From the NCBI GenBank assembly GCA_035547835.1, contig DASZTW010000017.1, positions 124,001 through 188,000 on the forward strand: DNA of 64,000 nt, given 5' to 3'. The position numbers and the translations under genes were made by a program. The stretch comes from Acidimicrobiales bacterium. GTDB lineage: Bacteria > Actinomycetota > Acidimicrobiia > Acidimicrobiales > Iamiaceae. Positions 15,242 to 57,591 of this stretch are shown piece by piece. Positions within the stretch are counted from its first letter, which is position 1. Each line of letters begins with the position of its first letter. The notes under the pieces were generated by a model. The model was not told where the DNA came from and ran no database searches. It saw nothing but the letters and a program-made list of their open reading frames with translations.

Positions 15242-17749
15242 TCAGGTCGGCGCCGGCACCCGCAGCGGCGCGAACCACGCTCGTTCGCGCGTGGCGGTGC
15301 GCACCACCGCGCGGCAGAAGTCGAACGCCCACACGATCACGGTCGCCGCCGGCAAGAACAGCAGCATCTCGATCGGCGCACGCATCTGCATGCCGCCGAG
15401 CGCGACCAGACCGCCGAGGCCGATCAGCACCGGCGTGATCGCCACGGCCCACGTGACCATGCGTCGCTCCCGTCCGCGCGTGATCACGATCGTGACGAGC
15501 CCGAGCAGCACCAGCACGTAGAACCCGATCACGCTGCCGTTGACGAGGCGATGTGGAACCGTGCCGGCCGCGCCGACGACCTGCGAGTAGTGGCCGAAGT
15601 CGAGCTCGAGCAGCCGCTCGCCGTTGCGGGCGACGGTCTTGATGGTCTTCTTCTTGTGGTGGATGGCGAACTGACGAGCGGCCGACCACAGCTGGGAGTC
15701 GAGCACGGCCGGGTTGGTGGGCGCGTCCTTGGCGAACTGCGCGGCCATCTCCGGGGCGGCGGCCGGTGTGGTCCACGCAAGAGGCGACTGGGGGTTCTTC
15801 GACGTGGCCGAGTTGTACTGGCCCGCCAGGGTGTAGCCGGCGCTGGCCTGGATCGGCACGAACTGGTGGTACGTGCGCTGGTTGCGGATCGTCCACGGCG
15901 CCACCACCACGATGGCCGCGAGCACCACGGCGCCCACTTGGCGCAGTCGTCGCGCGCTCGTCTTTGTCGACCACCAGGCCACCACCATGACGGTGACCCC
16001 CACCACCGCCATCGTCTGTTGGGTGAGCGCGGCGAGACCGACGAAGACGCCGGCCAGCGCGAACCCCCCGACCGGATGCCGCCACGACGGGGCCGCCAAC
16101 GCGGCCCACAGCGCCAGCGCCACGAACAGCAGCGCCATCGGCATGGGGCTGAGCGTGTACGACGACACCAGCATCGACGGGAACACGGCGGCCAGGCCGA
16201 GCACCACGAGCGCCGGTCGTCGCCCGACGAGGCGCAGCGCCACCGCACCGATGGCGGCCACGGCGGCGACGCTGATCACCGCAGTGGTGAGGCGCCCGAC
16301 GGTCACCCCGGTGCCGAACACCCGGTACACCAGCGACAGCACGGTCGGATAGGCGGGCCCCCGCAACGCGGACAGTCCAGGCGCGCCCGGCACCACCCCG
16401 AACCCGTGGCCGTGCGCCAGCGAGGTGGCGATGCGCTGGAAGTCGGCCGCATCGCCGTCGAGCGCAAACCGGTGGCGGGTGCCGAGCACCATGGCGAACC
16501 GCACCACCGCGGCCGCCACCAACACGCCCGCCACTGCCAAGCGGTACGTGCTGGCGCGCAGCGCCTCGAGCAGCCGCCCGCCGTAATCGGGCACCGCGCG
16601 AGGCACCAGGCTGCTCCACGAGATCTCCTGGCGGTGCAGCCGCGACCGGAGGCTGCGCAAGGGCTCTTCGAGCGTGCGGTACGTGATCTCGGTGAGCACG
16701 ACGGTGATCACGAGAGCGAGCAGCAGGCCACGGATGCCCCAGATGTGCCAACGCAGCACGGCGGTGGCGGCCAGCACGTGCCACAAGTACCCCGAGTACG
16801 AACGCTGACCGATGGCCACCATCAGCTTGCTCGACAAGACCCCGCCCATCGACCACGTGCGGGTGGCGGCCGCGCCCACGATCAGCGCGGTGGCGGCCGA
16901 GGCGATGAAGTGCCCGTAGCGACCGTTGAAGTTCGACCCGTGGATCACGAAGGTGATCGCGATCAGCGCGGTGCCGATCCAGCCCGCCGGCTTCGCCCAG
17001 CGCACCGGGAGACCCCAGCGGTGGCGGACGACCGCCAGCGCGCAACCGAGCAGCAGCGAGTCAGCCCGCGCGTCGGTGGCGTGGTACCACCAGTTGTAAT
17101 CACCGGCGTGGCCGACCAGCGATGCCCGCCAGATGGCCGACACCAGCGCCAGCACCACCAGCAGCGTCACGACCCGGATCGGCTTCCACGCCCGGCGGAC
17201 GAGGAACACGAGGCTCATCGGCCACAACAGGTAGAACTGCTCTTCGACCGAGAGCGTCCACACGTGCTCCATGCCGTTGGCGACCACGTGGTTCGACGCG
17301 AACAGGTAGTTGAAGAGGTAGACGGCCGCTGCCACCACCGAGAGCAGCTCGGTGCGCAACGAGATGCCGACGCCCACCGCCCAGATCACGTGCACGGTCA
17401 AGAACACCGCGAGCACCGGCAACAGCCGCAGCGCGCGCCGCGAGTAGAAGCTCCGGAAGCTGACGCGCCCGGTCCGCTGGTGCTCTTGGAGCAACAGCGC
17501 GGTGATCAAGAAGCCGCTGAGCCCGAAGAAGACATCGACGCCGACGGACCCGGCCTCGAGCCACGGCGTCGGACGCGGCCAGCGGTACACCGTGCCCCAA
17601 TGGACCCACGCGATGAGCACGAGCGCGAGGCCTCGGATGCCGTCGAGTGCAGGTATGAAGGTGAGGCGTTCCGCCAACCAGCCGCGACGAACTGCGGTCT
17701 GCCAGGCCCCAGATCCTGGCAGGGTGGTCTCGCCCTGGGTGTCTGACAC
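15242..17749 (-). CDS. Acyltransferase-3 domain fused to a GT-C glycosyltransferase
   Basis: An 835-residue polytopic membrane protein made of two enzymes. Residues about 25-400 are an OafA-type acyltransferase 3: FIPALDGIRGLAL, GVDVFFGLSGFL, FYSRRALRLLP and SVEEQFYLLWP are its signatures. Residues about 410-835 are a GT-C module: LDGDAADFQRIATSLAHG (acidic loop), ALRGPAYPTVLSLVY and PWTIRNQRTYHQF. That module is paralogous to the gene at 8938-10353. The ATG at 17749 fits the family start. One polypeptide may couple transfer of a sugar and O-acylation of a lipid-linked glycan; this coupling is inferred. Confidence 0.85.
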   Translation of the reverse strand: MSDTQGETTLPGSGAWQTAVRRGWLAERLTFIPALDGIRGLALVLIAWVHWGTVYRWPRPTPWLEAGSVGVDVFFGLSGFLITALLLQEHQRTGRVSFRSFYSRRALRLLPVLAVFLTVHVIWAVGVGISLRTELLSVVAAAVYLFNYLFASNHVVANGMEHVWTLSVEEQFYLLWPMSLVFLVRRAWKPIRVVTLLVVLALVSAIWRASLVGHAGDYNWWYHATDARADSLLLGCALAVVRHRWGLPVRWAKPAGWIGTALIAITFVIHGSNFNGRYGHFIASAATALIVGAAATRTWSMGGVLSSKLMVAIGQRSYSGYLWHVLAATAVLRWHIWGIRGLLLALVITVVLTEITYRTLEEPLRSLRSRLHRQEISWSSLVPRAVPDYGGRLLEALRASTYRLAVAGVLVAAAVVRFAMVLGTRHRFALDGDAADFQRIATSLAHGHGFGVVPGAPGLSALRGPAYPTVLSLVYRVFGTGVTVGRLTTAVISVAAVAAIGAVALRLVGRRPALVVLGLAAVFPSMLVSSYTLSPMPMALLFVALALWAALAAPSWRHPVGGFALAGVFVGLAALTQQTMAVVGVTVMVVAWWSTKTSARRLRQVGAVVLAAIVVVAPWTIRNQRTYHQFVPIQASAGYTLAGQYNSATSKNPQSPLAWTTPAAAPEMAAQFAKDAPTNPAVLDSQLWSAARQFAIHHKKKTIKTVARNGERLLELDFGHYSQVVGAAGTVPHRLVNGSVIGFYVLVLLGLVTIVITRGRERRMVTWAVAITPVLIGLGGLVALGGMQMRAPIEMLLFLPAATVIVWAFDFCRAVVRTATRERAWFAPLRVPAPT

Positions 17750-17782
17750 GACCGAATCCCCTCCGAACTGGCCGCATGGGTG

Positions 17783-17823
17783 GGTGGGTGCGCTGCTACG
17801 AACTCAGATGGGTGCGCTGCTAC
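17783..17823. repeat. Short direct repeat
   Basis: GGGTGCGCTGCTACG occurs twice, about 24 bases apart, in the gap between the methyltransferase stop (17828) and the acyltransferase start (17749). It could be a regulator site or a duplication scar. Confidence 0.4.
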
Positions 17824-17827
17824 GTGC

Positions 17828-18688
17828 TCAAAAGCGCCGATGTGTCAGGTAGGCGCGATGCGGGTGCCCGCCCCGAGTGGTGTCCCGCGCCACCATCCAC
17901 GTCAACGACTTCCGACCGAGCTCGCGAACCGGCCCCCGTCGAGCAGGCGCGGCCCCCAGCGCTTCCCCCGGTCGCAACAAGAAGAATGGTGAAACCTCGT
18001 CGATGTCAAACCCGCCGACCTTGAGCAGTTGACGCAAGCCCGGCTCGCTGGCCAGCCACCACTGGAAGTCGACCCCTTCGCCGCGCAGCTCGAACAGCGG
18101 GCGGCCCCGCCGCGCCAAGGCCTGCACCGGCGCGTGCACGAAGTCGACGCACAGGAACTGGCCGTCGGGCTTGACCACCTTGCGCACCGCGTCGAGCGCC
18201 CGCACCGGGTCGCGAAGGTGCACGAGCAGGCTGCCGAGGATCACGACGTCGAACGTGCCGTGCGCTTCGGGGTCGAGGTCGTACACGTTGCCGCCGCGCC
18301 ACTCGACCTTGGAGTCGAGCAGCCGGTGGATGAGCTGGAAGCCCGCCTGCCGGGGCTGCTGGTCGGAGTGGAACGGGTCGAAGCCTTCCTGGGCCCGCAC
18401 TTCTGGCGGGTAATCGATGCCCGACAGGTCGGGCACGTCGAGCGCCACGACCTCGGCCGCGCCACGCCGTTCCATCTCGAAGGCGTAGAAGCCATCCCAC
18501 GTGCCGATGTCGAGGCAGCGCTTGCCCTGCACGTCGGGGAAGGGCATCAGCGGCAGGGCGTGCCGCAGGTCGAACCAGCCCTTGGTGGCCTCCCCTTGGG
18601 CGACGTCGATCGAGTGGTAGTAGAGGAGCTCGTCGAGTTGCTTGCGAAGCTCGGCGCGCGACATCTGCTCGGCAGGGACTTGGCTCAC
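17828..18688 (-). CDS. CmoB-like class I SAM methyltransferase (paralogue 2)
   Basis: A protein of about 286 residues, clearly paralogous to the gene at 275-1144. It shares YHSIDVAQG, GWFDLRHAL, MPFPDV, KRCLDIGTWDGFYAFEM and VVILGSLLVHLRDP. It has the class I Rossmann motifs but no obvious substrate clue. GTG 18688 is preferred: a TACGAT box lies nine bases upstream, and longer readings run into a palindromic repeat. ATG 18664 is the alternative. It lies downstream of the lipase-like gene, separated by the nested palindrome. Confidence 0.8.
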   Translation of the reverse strand: MSQVPAEQMSRAELRKQLDELLYYHSIDVAQGEATKGWFDLRHALPLMPFPDVQGKRCLDIGTWDGFYAFEMERRGAAEVVALDVPDLSGIDYPPEVRAQEGFDPFHSDQQPRQAGFQLIHRLLDSKVEWRGGNVYDLDPEAHGTFDVVILGSLLVHLRDPVRALDAVRKVVKPDGQFLCVDFVHAPVQALARRGRPLFELRGEGVDFQWWLASEPGLRQLLKVGGFDIDEVSPFFLLRPGEALGAAPARRGPVRELGRKSLTWMVARDTTRGGHPHRAYLTHRRF

Positions 18689-18697
18689 AGGGCCGGC

Positions 18698-18703
18698 ATC
18701 GTA
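18698..18703 (-). promoter_or_regulatory. Putative -10 box of the methyltransferase
   Basis: TACGAT on the minus strand, nine bases before GTG 18688. There is no Shine-Dalgarno sequence. Confidence 0.4.
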
Positions 18704-18709
18704 CCCCAC

Positions 18710-18763
18710 CCGTTCTGGGCTGCTTTTTACGCGCCCCAACGCGTAGTTCTCAGCCCAGAACGG
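18710..18763. repeat. Nested palindrome, family 1, copy A
   Basis: Outer arms CCGTTCTGGGCTG / CAGCCCAGAACGG form a 13-bp perfect stem. They enclose a second hairpin TACGCG-CCCCAA-CGCGTA. The stop codon of the lipase-like gene (18750-18752) falls at the edge of the 3' arm, so the last residues of that protein (LPVLG) are encoded by the repeat. The second copy is at 19924-19977. Confidence 0.85.
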
Positions 18764-19835
18764 GGAGGGGGGTCGGCGCTCCGCAGGACGCGGTGACGTA
18801 GCAGGCGAGGGGCGGCTCGGCGTCGACCATGCCCTGCATCACCCGCGGGCCCACGTTGCCGGCGATGCGGGCTGTTTGGGTCAGCAGTTCGATGGGGCTG
18901 ACGTGCGGCATCGTGCCGGGCAGGCACGGCTGTTGCAACCGCACCCGCGCCAGGTCGGCCGGCTCGCCGGGGTGGCGGAACGCGTCGAGGGCGATGGCGT
19001 ACGCGGTGGGCGACGCCGGGATCAGCAGGTGGTCCGACAAGTCGGTGGCGCACACGTCTTGGATCGCCACGTTGGTCACGTTCGGGCCGGGCGGCAGCAC
19101 CGACAACGAGCCGTCGACGTCCGGCGTCACGACGTCGTCGACGCGGGTGTAGATGGCCGTGTACGCGATGCCAGGGAAGGTCTGCGCCCGGGAGTTGAGG
19201 GCCGCCATGAACTTGGACCCGATCGCTTGCTGCCACCCGGCCGGGATGCACGATCCGGGTACGCACAGCCCGGTGGCCACCGCCGATCCCTTGTTGTTGA
19301 GCGGCGCCAGGCCCACCAGCGACGCGACCATCGGCCGGATGTCGGGCCACCACCGCAGCGCCCACCGAGGCAAGGTGCTGGCGCCCTGGCTCCACCCGAA
19401 CAGGATCACCTTGCGGTGCGTCGCCGACCGGATGACCCGCACGGCGTTCACGACGTACTCAGCGGCCACCTGGATGTCGCCGTCAGTGTGGTTCGGCACG
19501 GTCACCGTGCAATACGGCATGTGCTCGGCCGTCAGCGCCTGCTCGTAGTTCCAGGCGAACGCCTCGTCGGGATCGACGGTGGTGCCCGGGATCATCAACA
19601 CGACGTCGCGGGTGACGGCCGACAGGTTGGCCGGGCAGCGCAGCGACGCGTCGAGGTCGCGCTGGGGCACCTGCAACGCCGGGCCCGGTTGGTCGAGCGG
19701 CGCGTAGCCGCCACTCGCCGCGACGGTCGAGGGCGTCGCGCCCGCACCCGTGGCCGGCGCAACGGCGAGCCCGGCCACCAGCAGCCCGACCGCGAGCGGG
19801 CCGGACACGAACCGGAACCAACCCTTCCATGGCAT
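18750..19835 (-). CDS. Secreted lipase-like alpha/beta hydrolase
   Basis: A 361-residue exported hydrolase. A signal segment (FVSGPLAVGLLVAGLAVAPATGAGA) follows MPWKGW. The nucleophile elbow is GWSQG, preceded by a strand KVILF; a probable acid Asp lies in RVDDVVTPD and a His in LSDHLLIP. MIPGTTVDPDEAF gives the oxyanion region. The overall pattern resembles lipases of the Candida antarctica B type and related actinobacterial enzymes. ATG 19835 is chosen for AAGGGCGA just upstream; longer starts would read through a short CGACTGCCA direct repeat. The substrate is unknown. Confidence 0.78.
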   Translation of the reverse strand: MPWKGWFRFVSGPLAVGLLVAGLAVAPATGAGATPSTVAASGGYAPLDQPGPALQVPQRDLDASLRCPANLSAVTRDVVLMIPGTTVDPDEAFAWNYEQALTAEHMPYCTVTVPNHTDGDIQVAAEYVVNAVRVIRSATHRKVILFGWSQGASTLPRWALRWWPDIRPMVASLVGLAPLNNKGSAVATGLCVPGSCIPAGWQQAIGSKFMAALNSRAQTFPGIAYTAIYTRVDDVVTPDVDGSLSVLPPGPNVTNVAIQDVCATDLSDHLLIPASPTAYAIALDAFRHPGEPADLARVRLQQPCLPGTMPHVSPIELLTQTARIAGNVGPRVMQGMVDAEPPLACYVTASCGAPTPLPVLG

Positions 19836-19922
19836 TGGTCGCCCTTGTCGGACTCGTCGCAGTCGTGGCAGTCGTGGCAGTCGTCCCATGGGAGACATCT
19901 TCGCCGCGCCGCCCTCCCCCAC

Positions 19923-19978
19923 CCCGTTCTGGGCTGCGTTTTACGCGCCCCAACGCGTAATTCTCAGCCCAGAACGGG
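19923..19978. repeat. Nested palindrome, family 1, copy B
   Basis: Outer arms CCCGTTCTGGGCTG / CAGCCCAGAACGGG (14 bp, perfect) enclose TTACGCG-CCCCAA-CGCGTAA (7 bp, perfect). It lies between purC and the lipase-like gene, with almost the same sequence as copy A. It could fold as a cruciform or as a terminator-like double hairpin in RNA. Confidence 0.88.
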
Positions 19979-19988
19979 CCGGGGCCGG

Positions 19989-20030
19989 GCCCAGAACGGG
20001 CGGGGGACGGGGATCCGCCCAGAACGGGCC
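19989..20030. repeat. Extra half-arms of family 1 palindrome
   Basis: GCCCAGAACGGG recurs at 19989 and 20017, right next to the 3' arm of copy B at about 19967. It is set in GGGGCCGGG-type spacers with periods of 22 and 28 bases. This looks like local tandem duplication of one palindrome arm. Confidence 0.75.
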
Positions 20031-20052
20031 GGGGCCGGGAGGGGGCGGGTGG

Positions 20053-20958
20053 TCAGGCGGTGACGCCCGGCCAGTCGGTGAAGCGACGGCCGGTGATCAG
20101 CTCGTAGGCCTCGCGGTAGCGATTGCTGGTGGCGGCGACGACCTCGTCGGGCAACGGTGGCGGCGGCGGGGTCTTGTCCCAGTCGAGGCCATCGAGGTAG
20201 TCGCGCACGGGCTGCTTGTCGAAGCTCGGCGGCGTGATGCCCGGCTTCCACTCGTCGGCGGGCCAGAACCGTGACGAGTCGGGGGTGAGGACCTCGTCGC
20301 ACAGGATCAGCTGGCCGTCGAGCAGGCCGAGCTCGAACTTGGTGTCGGCGATGATCACGCCCCGCTCGGCCGCCAGCTCGGCACCTCTGCGGTAGATCTC
20401 GAGCGAGATGTCACGCGCCTTGGTGGCCAGCTCGGCGCCGACGCGGTCGGCGGCTTCTTCGAACGTGATGTTGATGTCGTGGTCGCCGTCATCGGCCTTG
20501 GTCGACGGCGTGAACACCGGCTCGGGCAGTTGCGACGACTCGAGCAGCCCCTCGGGCAGCTTGGTGCCGTGCATCGTGCCGTCCGCCTTGTACTCCTTCC
20601 AGGCCGAGCCGGTGAGGTAGCCCCGCACGATGCACTCGATCGACAGCATCTCAGCCTTGTGGCACAGCATCACCCGTCCCGCCAGCTCGGGGAGCTGCGC
20701 GGCGGACGGTACGTCGGCGAGGTCGGTGGAGATCAGGTGACTGCCGACCAGGTCGCGGAAGTGCTCGAACCAGAACGCAGAGATGGCGGTGAGGACCCGG
20801 CCCTTGTGCTCGATCGGTTCGGCCATCACGACGTCGAAGGCGGAGATGCGATCGGACGTCACCAGCAACAGCCGCCCCTCCCCTGCGTCGTACATGTCGC
20901 GGACCTTGCCGGAGTAGACGTGGGGCAAGTCGATGGGGAATGCGGGCTGTCGCGTCAT
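20053..20958 (-). CDS. purC: SAICAR synthetase
   Basis: A 301-residue ATP-dependent enzyme joining aspartate to CAIR. Signatures are GKVRDMYDAG (N-terminal P-loop-like turn), LLVTSDRISAFDVVM, ECIVRGYLTGSAWKEY, and IADTKFELGL near residue 200. The length matches the monofunctional bacterial enzyme. ATG 20958 gives the canonical N-terminus; TAAGGT stands seven bases upstream. It lies apart from purS and purL, the intervening 11 kb being glycan genes. Confidence 0.96.
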   Translation of the reverse strand: MTRQPAFPIDLPHVYSGKVRDMYDAGEGRLLLVTSDRISAFDVVMAEPIEHKGRVLTAISAFWFEHFRDLVGSHLISTDLADVPSAAQLPELAGRVMLCHKAEMLSIECIVRGYLTGSAWKEYKADGTMHGTKLPEGLLESSQLPEPVFTPSTKADDGDHDINITFEEAADRVGAELATKARDISLEIYRRGAELAAERGVIIADTKFELGLLDGQLILCDEVLTPDSSRFWPADEWKPGITPPSFDKQPVRDYLDGLDWDKTPPPPPLPDEVVAATSNRYREAYELITGRRFTDWPGVTA

Positions 20959-20965
20959 TGAGGCG

Positions 20966-20971
20966 ACCTTA
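20966..20971 (-). promoter_or_regulatory. Putative -10 box of purC
   Basis: TAAGGT on the minus strand, seven bases before ATG 20958. The same bases could serve as a weak AAGGT ribosome site, so this call is tentative. Confidence 0.35.
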
Positions 20972-21103
20972 GAGCGCGCCCACCGCACCCGGAGCCGACT
21001 TTCGCAGCCAGCCACCAGGACCGACCGGCCACGACCCCGTTCCGCGCGAGGTTTCCGACCGCCACGGTGGGATTCTGCGCGCAGAAAGTCGGGGGGCGCC
21101 GGT

Positions 21104-23044
21104 TCAGACGGCGGAGTCGCCGCGGTCGGGGTCCGGCACGGAGTGGAGCAGTGCGCGTTGGCTGTTCAGGCGTTCGATCTCGTCGAGCACCCGGCGCACC
21201 GCACGATCGAGCGCCCGCACGTACTGCTCGGTCACCGTGTCGACCTGGTCGCGGGCGCGGCGACCCATGGCGGCGACTTCGTCGACGAGGTTCTCGATCT
21301 TCTGGCGATCGGTGCGGGCCTGGTCGCTGAACTGACCGAGCTGATCGGCGTGGCGTTCGAGGTGTTCCTGGAGGTGGCCGACCAGCCGCGCCGAGCCGTC
21401 GGGGGCGCTCGCGCGAACAGCCTCCATCCGGCGCAGTTCGGCGGCGAGCAGCTCCCCCACCCGACCCGCCACCTCTGCCGCCGTCGGGAGCAGTGGCGCG
21501 GTTGCTGCCGCGATCGCGTCAGGGTCGAGGCGCTCGCCGACCGCCGACGCCAGCTCCCGCCCGACCTGCTCGGCCACCCGGCCCGCCACCGAGTCGGCCA
21601 AGACCTCGGGCGCCGGGGTCGAACGTTGCCCGTCGCGGACGATGTCGCCAACCTGCTCGATGGCCGTGCGGAGCTCGCTCGTCGAGGCCGCACCAGCCGA
21701 GGCCAACCCAGGGACGCGCTCGGTGAAGACCGACGCTACTGCCGACCTCACGGCCTCGCGGTCCACCAGGCGGTCTCGCAGTGCGCTCGTCACCTGCGTC
21801 GTCACGTCCGCGGCCAGGGCAACTGGGTCCGGTGGAGCGGGAGCGGGCGCCGCGATCGCCTGCATCAGGGGAGAGTCGTCCGGGAGGGAGATCTCGAGCG
21901 GCAGCTCGCTCAGCCGATCGATGACCCGATCGGCCACCGCCCGCGCTGCCGCGTCGGGGTCCGGCGACGGCTGCGCCGCCAACAACTCACCGACCTGGCC
22001 CGTCACCAGGTCGGCCGTGGCCTGCGCCATCGCGCTCGGGTCCGGATCGGGCCGACCGTCCAACACCGCCCGCAACCGCTCCCCAACCCCATCAGCCACC
22101 GCCTGCGCCGCCGCATTCGCAACCGCGATCGGCCGCGCCCCGAACTCCTCGCGCAACCGCTCCGCCACCCCGGCGGCAACCGCCTCCGTCGTCGCGTTCG
22201 TGTCCGAAACGAGCTGGTCGTGCAGCCGGTCGGCTACGAGGGCGGCCACCTCCTGAGCCGCTGCGTCGGCGGCATCCGGGCGGTCCGCGAAGCGAGCGGC
22301 CACCTCCGCGGCCAGGAGATGGTGGTCGACCTGCGGCGTCGGGACGACCGGCGCGGGCCTCGCCGACACTGCCTGTTCGATCGTCGGACGCAGGCGGCCG
22401 GCGACGAGGTCCGCGAGGCGGTCGAGGTCGACGGTGCGGATCGCCGGCCCCCCGCCCGACCCGACGGGGAGGCGGACCAGCCCGGTTCCGGCCGGGTCGG
22501 CGCCATCGGGCTCGGACGGCGGGACGAGCTCGGGCGGGGCGGGCGGAAGCGGGCGGCCACCCGCCACGTCAGCTGCCGCGACCTCTTCGGGCGACGATCC
22601 CGGAAACACGAACACGGGTGGCGAGCCGGCGTCGACCCGGAGGATCGGCTGGTCGTCGCGACCCGGGACCCACAGCTCGATGCGGGCCCACTCGTCGCGT
22701 TGATCGACCGCCGCGCGCACCGCCTCAGCCGCGGGAACGGCCTCGGCCGGCTCAGGGGTCGAACCGAATCGCTCGTAGGCCACGGTCTCGAGTCGCTCGC
22801 CGCCGTACGGGCCGAAGAAGCGCTCGACCGAGTCATCGGCCCCTGCCTGCGCCAGCCGAGCCAGCGCCGCCCCCACCACCTGGCCCGCGCCAGGGTCGAC
22901 GCTCGCTCCCGGAGCGGCTTCGGCTGCGTGAAGGATCCGCTCCAGCAGGTCCGCGCTTGCACCGTCGAACAGGTCGTAGTCCACCCGCAACTCCCGTCCG
23001 GCGCCGGCCGGCCACCCGTCCGTGGCCGCCGCGCGCACAGGCAT
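21104..23044 (-). CDS. Alanine-rich helical repeat protein of unknown function
   Basis: A 646-residue protein with no domain I recognise. The N-terminal 170 residues look globular (FDGASADLLERILHAAEAAPG; RIELWVPGRDD). Residues about 190-540 are built from degenerate helical units of about 28-40 residues, approximating AVADGVGERLRAVLDGRPDP: VADRV, VAERL, VGELL and VGERL recur. A predicted coiled coil closes the protein (HLQEHLERHADQLGQF, then VTEQYVRALDRAVRRVLDEI). It has no signal peptide or membrane segment. Start ATG 23044 has GAGGTAGGA upstream. It lies between purB and purC on the same strand. A scaffolding or cell-shape role is possible but unproven. Confidence 0.7.
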   Translation of the reverse strand: MPVRAAATDGWPAGAGRELRVDYDLFDGASADLLERILHAAEAAPGASVDPGAGQVVGAALARLAQAGADDSVERFFGPYGGERLETVAYERFGSTPEPAEAVPAAEAVRAAVDQRDEWARIELWVPGRDDQPILRVDAGSPPVFVFPGSSPEEVAAADVAGGRPLPPAPPELVPPSEPDGADPAGTGLVRLPVGSGGGPAIRTVDLDRLADLVAGRLRPTIEQAVSARPAPVVPTPQVDHHLLAAEVAARFADRPDAADAAAQEVAALVADRLHDQLVSDTNATTEAVAAGVAERLREEFGARPIAVANAAAQAVADGVGERLRAVLDGRPDPDPSAMAQATADLVTGQVGELLAAQPSPDPDAAARAVADRVIDRLSELPLEISLPDDSPLMQAIAAPAPAPPDPVALAADVTTQVTSALRDRLVDREAVRSAVASVFTERVPGLASAGAASTSELRTAIEQVGDIVRDGQRSTPAPEVLADSVAGRVAEQVGRELASAVGERLDPDAIAAATAPLLPTAAEVAGRVGELLAAELRRMEAVRASAPDGSARLVGHLQEHLERHADQLGQFSDQARTDRQKIENLVDEVAAMGRRARDQVDTVTEQYVRALDRAVRRVLDEIERLNSQRALLHSVPDPDRGDSAV

Positions 23045-33714: not shown

Positions 33715-33824
33715 GACGTCCCCTCGTCGACGACCTCGTGCTTCACCGGCGCGGAGAAGCCGCGCCCGGCCCGGGCGACACTAGTGCCCGTCCCCGCCCG
33801 CTCCCCCCCAACCCCCCACCGTGC

Positions 33825-33865
33825 TGTGAGCACTCAGCCACCCACCAGGTGGTCAAGTGCTCACA
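33825..33865. repeat. Palindrome family 2, copy A
   Basis: TGTGAGCACT...CCACC / GGTGG...AGTGCTCACA forms an imperfect stem, with outer CCCCACC / GGGGTGGG flanks. It lies between the hspR stop and the SCO6745-family start. It is related to the copies at 39594, 43928 and 57547. Confidence 0.8.
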
Positions 33866-33911
33866 CCGCAAGGAGGGGTGGGCAACTGCTGACGCCACAA
33901 GGGGCGGTGGG

Positions 33912-39593: not shown

Positions 39594-39646
39594 CCGTGCT
39601 GTGAGCACTTGCCCACCCAGGAGGTGGCTACGTGCTCACAGCACGG
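39594..39646. repeat. Palindrome family 2, copy B
   Basis: CCGTGCTGTGAGCAC pairs perfectly with GTGCTCACAGCACGG over 15 bp; inner CCACC / GGTGG also pairs. G/C-rich flanks (CCACCCCC / GGGGGTGG) extend it. It lies 16 bases after the DUF2510 gene and could act as its terminator. Confidence 0.88.
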
Positions 39647-43927: not shown

Positions 43928-43976
43928 CTGCTGTGAGCACTTGACCACCTCCTCGGTGGTTGAGCGCGCACAGCAG
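43928..43976. repeat. Palindrome family 2, copy C
   Basis: CTGCTGTG / CACAGCAG (8 bp) and inner ACCACC / GGTGGT pair, with the family core TGTGAGCACTTG in the 5' arm and a diverged 3' arm. It lies between etfD and the DUF1385 gene. Confidence 0.78.
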
Positions 43977-57546: not shown

Positions 57547-57591
57547 GCTGTGAGCACTTGGCCACCTCCCCGGTGGCCAAGTGCTCACAGC
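57547..57591. repeat. Palindrome family 2, copy D (best preserved)
   Basis: GCTGTGAGCACTTGGCCACC and its exact complement form a 20-bp perfect stem around the loop TCCCC. It lies 37 bases after the small membrane protein gene. Confidence 0.92.

Follow-up and report, generated by a model that had tools for sequence, protein, structure and literature searches.

Nested palindromes in an Acidimicrobiales genome: probable members of a REP-like family with an AbiEi-like/DUF559 nuclease gene as partner

Related systems

The described systems closest to the elements of this study are the REPs and REPINs together with the REPtrons. REPs are short dispersed palindromes of 20-40 bp that often lie after stop codons or between convergent genes, some of them supplying the stop; they are tied to a single type of enzyme, the RAYTs (Y1 tyrosine transposases), with one REP superfamily said to be without a dedicated transposase (PMC3733652). 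REPtrons feature species-specific arms, tandem clusters, and repeats on both sides of the gene for the cognate enzyme. The palindromes described below share these traits and differ in others: the Y1 transposase is absent, and the flanked gene encodes an AbiEi-like/DUF559 nuclease; a one-sided GTAG/CGTC tag is lacking, the ends being symmetric (CCGTT...AACGG); and the length is 50-54 bp. Because the defining RAYT is absent, the system is not filed as REP-RAYT. We read it as a REP/REPtron-like system in which an unrelated nuclease would be the cognate enzyme.

The EDxHD (Vsr-fold) homing endonucleases resemble this nuclease through a weak profile match to PDB 3r3p (E 0.0044), an entry that we take to be I-Bth0305I. 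They lack an AbiEi-like DNA-binding half and differ further in their setting, as the system here comprises many dispersed repeats and no intron or intein. The family is reported to act as a dimer whose target spans nearly 60 bp (PMC3943268), a length near that of the present dyads (50-54 bp). The AbiE type IV toxin–antitoxin systems are related through the other half of the protein, the N-terminal one, which matches AbiEi models with a best value of 2.2e-23 for the F1 protein. AbiEi is reported to bind inverted repeats (PMC7319586); unlike AbiEi, the protein here carries a fused nuclease domain.

The palindrome pair in the window

The window is the whole stretch of DNA that was analyzed, with a length of 64,000 nucleotides. 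An earlier note, made from its letters, had described a nested double palindrome in two near-identical copies bracketing a lipase-like gene. The features of this region are as follows.

18710..18763, no strand: F1 palindrome copy A, an arm of which supplies the TGA of the lipase-like ORF
18750..19835, minus strand: lipase-like ORF of 361 amino acids, bracketed by copies A and B and ending in VLG-stop from copy A
19924..19977, no strand: F1 palindrome copy B, between a purC-like gene and the lipase-like gene
19989..20000, plus strand: extra half-arm GCCCAGAACGGG adjoining copy B
20017..20028, plus strand: second extra half-arm GCCCAGAACGGG adjoining copy B

The described pair is real: over 67 nt the two copies share 91% identity, and neither has a mismatch in the outer arms CCGTTCTGGGCTG/CAGCCCAGAACGG. 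Each is built from outer arms of 13 bp, spacers of 4 nt, an inner stem of 7 bp, and a 6-nt loop. The inner TTACGCG-CCCCAA-CGCGTAA, assigned by the note to both copies, is exact in copy B—the sole match in the window, with 0 expected from shuffles—and has one mismatch in copy A, where the stem ends in CGCGTAG. The last codons of the lipase-like ORF, GTT CTG GGC TGA (V-L-G-stop), are an arm of copy A, so that the claim of a captured stop codon and last residues stands, as does that of extra half-arms beside copy B. The motif CCCAGAACG occurs seven times in the window against 0.66 expected. Because of this excess and of the 30 copies found in the genome against none for a reversed-pattern control, copies A and B are not a product of chance.

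The lipase-like ORF itself has no Pfam match at E 0.001. Matches of relatives to its protein cover inner parts only, at 29-41% identity, and the C-terminus lies outside the aligned parts. The gene is apparently a bystander, and among bracketed genes it is those of the AbiEi-DUF559 nucleases, described below, that are informative.

The F1 family across the genome

The genome of the organism (G000) has a size of 3.70 Mb and is 96.7% complete. It carries 30 dispersed copies of the F1 family of approximately 54-bp nested palindromes. The genome-wide arm search that the note had proposed allowed up to three mismatches in the 20 arm positions and returned 30 places—every one with 0 mismatches—and none for the reversed control. 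Identical 10-bp arms and the same 28-nt inter-arm distance are found in 30 of 30 copies. The interiors vary, and a TGGG-bearing loop occurs in both directions relative to the spacers. Pairing is avoided in the A/T-rich 4-nt spacers, where shuffling predicts approximately 51 paired positions out of 120 and 25 are seen (P 0.0012).

Decayed copies of F1, with one to four arm mismatches, were not found in 1.643 Mb; the second family, F2, has in the same 1.643 Mb 14 copies with one arm mismatch and five with two. As no F1 copy with mismatched arms is seen, the arms may be under strong selection, may be kept uniform, or may have spread recently. The lack of decayed copies counts against a purely mobile family, in which such copies are expected.

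Exact F1 arms are confined to this genome among 61 genomes, and the exact pattern has no match in viral contigs; a looser pattern gives at least 120 stretches there, approximately the chance level by our own estimate. Rfam yields three weak matches, all under the gathering score and none meaningful. A Rhodobacteraceae match (L046) was judged to be chance, with an interior that does not look palindromic. Integron attC sites feature RYYYAAC ... GTTRRRY consensus boxes and form cassette arrays; F1 lacks these boxes, its ends being GTTCTGG...CCAGAAC, and its copies are dispersed. Direct repeats of 2-9 nt, as the target-site duplication of a DDE-type MITE would leave, are not in excess next to the 30 elements of this genome and 65 of relatives.

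An F1 copy lies in both adjacent gaps for three of 1478 genes. Besides the lipase pair, two F1 copies at C17:208174 and 208966 (L056) enclose a maltose-acetyltransferase-like gene and do not differ over 50 nt, which looks like a recent local duplication of the same sort. On these grounds local duplication, which the note had read from the half-arms as recent, is plausible.

Position relative to genes

With a home-made gene finder, none of the 30 F1 copies is located inside a predicted gene: 11 occupy convergent gaps, 14 tandem, and five divergent, and some overlap a gene end. In five of the 30, an arm supplies the stop of the gene—lipase-like, EF-G-like, LeuA, GlnE, and an RibD_C-domain protein. 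The proteins flanking F1 have no common theme, as judged from 20 that were scanned. Of 69 classified elements of relatives, 29 are convergent, 27 tandem, four divergent, and nine inside predicted genes, one further element at a contig edge being left out; another 19 divide into four convergent, 11 tandem, three divergent, and one inside a gene. Several of the "inside-gene" elements are poor palindromes and probably chance matches.

The intergenic length in 1.643 Mb is 14% convergent, 56% tandem, and 29% divergent. Against this background, F2 is strongly biased toward convergent gaps (15 of 31 distinct gaps, P 6e-6) and F1 moderately (7 of 20, P 0.016), and a depletion of F1 in divergent gaps is not seen (4 of 20, P 0.26; all in 1.643 Mb). 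This bias, along with hairpins of very high stability (-65.2 kcal/mol with z -9.1, and -50.1 kcal/mol with z -6.1), is what plain two-way terminators would show—spread by chance duplication and with a secondary link to the nuclease. However, a terminator needs no sequence-invariant arms, five of 30 F1 copies sit in divergent gaps, a whole genome holds only 30 copies, and a scan of 17500-21200 gave no T-run terminator at the elements, with a single weak site elsewhere, at 17533-17546. The one-to-one pairing with nuclease genes, described next, would also be left unexplained, and we regard the terminator explanation as improbable.

Second and third families and the probable cognate nuclease genes

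The F2 family, with arms GCTGTGAGCA/TGCTCACACC, has 40 copies in the 1.643 Mb examined, of which four lie in the window.

33823..33867, no strand: F2 palindrome, arms GCTGTGAGCA/TGCTCACACC
39598..39642, no strand: F2 palindrome
43930..43974, no strand: F2 palindrome, right arm with two mismatches
57547..57591, no strand: F2 palindrome

A de novo search for dispersed palindromes with 10-bp arms in the same 1.643 Mb gave F1 and F2 as the only well-dispersed families. A third family, F3, has the arms TTGGCTCGTT/AACGAGCCAA around its nuclease gene and, away from that gene, a single copy in 1.643 Mb (C17:293865).

The F1 nuclease gene, C12:148337-149281, is located outside the window between two F1 copies. 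Its protein matches models of AbiEi antitoxins over the N-terminal half and DUF559 over the C-terminal half; the protein of the genome G401 is of the same kind. The G401 and G317 proteins have, in addition, a weak match to the MTES_1575 nuclease family, just under the cut-off. A profile of six such proteins, compared with the PDB, finds 3hrl, an endonuclease-like protein, at 3.7e-7, and the above-mentioned 3r3p, a mobile intron protein, at 0.0044. Residues D, E, H, and D of the C-terminal half are invariant in six of six proteins, the invariant positions listed being E207, D239, E250, H257, and D266. This half is predicted to be a Vsr/PD-(D/E)XK-type nuclease domain.

Six flanked proteins, including one encoded in this genome, were combined into a profile, and a scan with it over 1.643 Mb, or 44% of the genome, matched four ORFs, of which three are full-length. 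The fourth, G000 C17:288085, was left out because the nuclease half is missing. All three full-length AbiEi-DUF559 genes in the 1.643 Mb have copies of a palindrome of their own on either side, namely F1, F2, and F3, respectively. At the F2 locus (C5:99921-100850), the arms are GCTGTGAGCA/TGCTCACAGC, and three F2 copies upstream and two downstream form tandem arrays with a period of approximately 73 bp on both sides of the gene. Since the F1 gene was first met through being flanked, the independent part of this test consists of F2 and F3. As a control, same-armed 7-bp palindromes were found in both flanks of 10 of 1478 genes, all three nuclease genes included (P 2e-7). At 8 bp, four of 1478 genes remain: two nuclease genes, the lipase-like gene of the window, and a hexapeptide-transferase gene (P 1.6e-5). 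Judged from these sequences, palindrome families are paired with specific nuclease genes.

The same layout in other genomes

Outside G000, palindrome, gene, and palindrome are arranged in this way in G317, G155, G401, G004, and G080, all of the same order, and also in Tsukamurella. Both flanks can be seen for nine full-length genes: three in G000 and one in each of these six. The 8-bp same-arm test is passed by six of the nine, and F3 passes at 7 bp. In G155 and G080, imperfect palindromes can be appreciated by eye on both sides, and both genes fail the automatic same-arm test; the 3' palindrome of G080 is decayed. A further gene, in G010, has three tandem palindromes on its sole visible side. 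Five of these 10 genes (F2, F3, G155, G010, and Tsukamurella) were found without a palindrome as lead, the Tsukamurella gene by protein similarity alone.

This last gene, a DUF559 gene located on NZ_LR134454 of Tsukamurella tyrosinosolvens, is enclosed by TGCGGTGGAT/ATCCACCGCA palindromes. Two other records of the same strain carry similar copies; one of these copies sits tightly between the stop codons of convergent genes, and the other occupies a divergent gap. The "plasmid" records of T. tyrosinosolvens NCTC13231 (NZ_LR134451, NZ_LR134454, and NZ_LR134464; L431-L434) carry the housekeeping genes nrdF and pntB and look like pieces of chromosome. Related proteins are encoded in 15 plasmid records (Thermus, Geobacillus, and others), one of which was examined for palindromes.

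Related palindromes in the order and their gain and loss

Of 298 genomes of the order, 14 contain matches to a covariance model built from the 30 F1 copies, the genome of the window being one of them. The better matches have in common a stem base, CGTTCTGG/CCAGAACG, with inner arms that are genome-specific. The pattern CGTTCTGG-N26-44-CCAGAACG occurs in 65 of 397 genomes, at up to 53 (G089) and 48 (G222) places, and its reversed control gives approximately 15 matches in 14 genomes; the note's expectation of other copies in the genome and its relatives is borne out in this form. The outer bases are constant within genomes—partly because of the choice of pattern—and compensatory changes are seen at inner pairs in several of them.

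The size of such elements, their intergenic place near stops, and the overlap with stop codons are as described for REPs (PMC3733652), as would suit classical REPs moved by a RAYT. Yet PF01797 (Y1_Tnp) has no match in the 96.7% complete genome, the same model being positive in five of 14 control genomes, and of 20 genomes with at least eight matches to the stem-base pattern, only G230 belongs to the 75 of 397 with Y1_Tnp. Movement by a RAYT is very unlikely.

The flanks of thirteen elements were traced into same-genus genomes by joined probe, part of them giving usable, aligned sites. The C10 element of G214 is absent in G236, the C168 element of G214 in both G236 and G273, the C28 element of G401 in G056, and the C78 element of G317 in G155. 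The C12 and C77 elements of G401 are common to G258, and one G317 element is retained in G155 with a changed interior. At the G214 sites on C35 and C10, other genomes carry a CGTTCTCGGGGTGG-type palindrome at the same place. In G236 and G273 (L324 and L334), palindromes with CGTTCTCGGGGTGG arms occupy the sites of CGTTCTGGCGGTCG elements of G214. One candidate pair, L123 and L126, was rejected as a common site, as the alignment placed one element at each end of a homologous gene.

On C79 of G401, a gene of approximately 0.93 kb is enclosed by two identical palindromes; the counterpart in G258 and G056 is one palindrome with matching outer flanks. The comparison fits insertion or deletion alike. 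By analogy only, one palindrome in two genomes and palindrome–gene–palindrome in a third recalls a solo LTR and a full retroelement; unlike LTRs, the repeats here are approximately 51 bp long and palindromic.

Gain and loss between genomes of one genus also bears on a regulatory explanation, in which the AbiEi-DUF559 protein would be an autoregulator, the palindromes its operators, and the dispersed copies a selected regulon or roadblock set and not mobile. In its favor, the promoters of AbiEi antitoxins contain inverted repeats to which the antitoxins themselves bind (PMC7319586), and a need for every copy would account for the invariance of the F1 arms in 30 of 30 copies. Against this stand the turnover of elements itself, the preference of copies for the 3' ends of genes over promoters, the palindrome located 3' of the nuclease gene as well, the F2 tandem arrays with their regular period, and the diversity of the 20 flanking proteins. 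The operator explanation is accordingly rated as unlikely, although less so than the terminators.

Proposed mechanism

Copies A and B are probably non-autonomous members of the REP-like F1 family, whose partner is the AbiEi-like/DUF559 nuclease gene at C12:148337-149281; the steps of binding, cutting, and copying are inferred. Nuclease genes and palindromes are associated in the genomes, and the nuclease may mobilize the palindromes. In this scheme the inverted arms would be bound by the AbiEi-like half, probably dimeric and in contact with the entire dyad of approximately 50 bp, or else with a single strand that has folded. Nicking or cutting by the Vsr/PD-(D/E)XK-like half would come next, and repair would copy the palindrome into new sites or keep existing copies uniform. 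Copies would settle where they are tolerated—mainly right after stop codons—and the strong hairpin may double there as a two-way transcript end. Maintenance or regulation of palindromes without movement is a possible variant. The lack of target-site duplication, the single distant copy of F3, and the failure of G155 and G080 in the same-arm test count against the favored mobile reading.

Significance

A search of titles and abstracts, with subscription journals and preprints mostly outside its reach, found no prior report that pairs palindromes with DUF559 genes. On balance, we lean slightly toward a class of parasites or domesticated elements in Actinomycetota, REP-RAYT-like and built on a fusion of AbiEi-like and Vsr-type parts. 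Each paralogue would recognize and spread or maintain its own palindromes of approximately 40-54 bp; several pairs would coexist in one genome, and arms and specificity would co-diverge between species. If true, a second, unrelated enzyme family paired one-to-one with palindromes would help to explain palindromic repeats that have no RAYT. A family whose annotation goes no further than DUF559/AbiEi-like would also gain a function, and natural pairs of nuclease and site would become available in which the evolution of long-site specificity can be studied.
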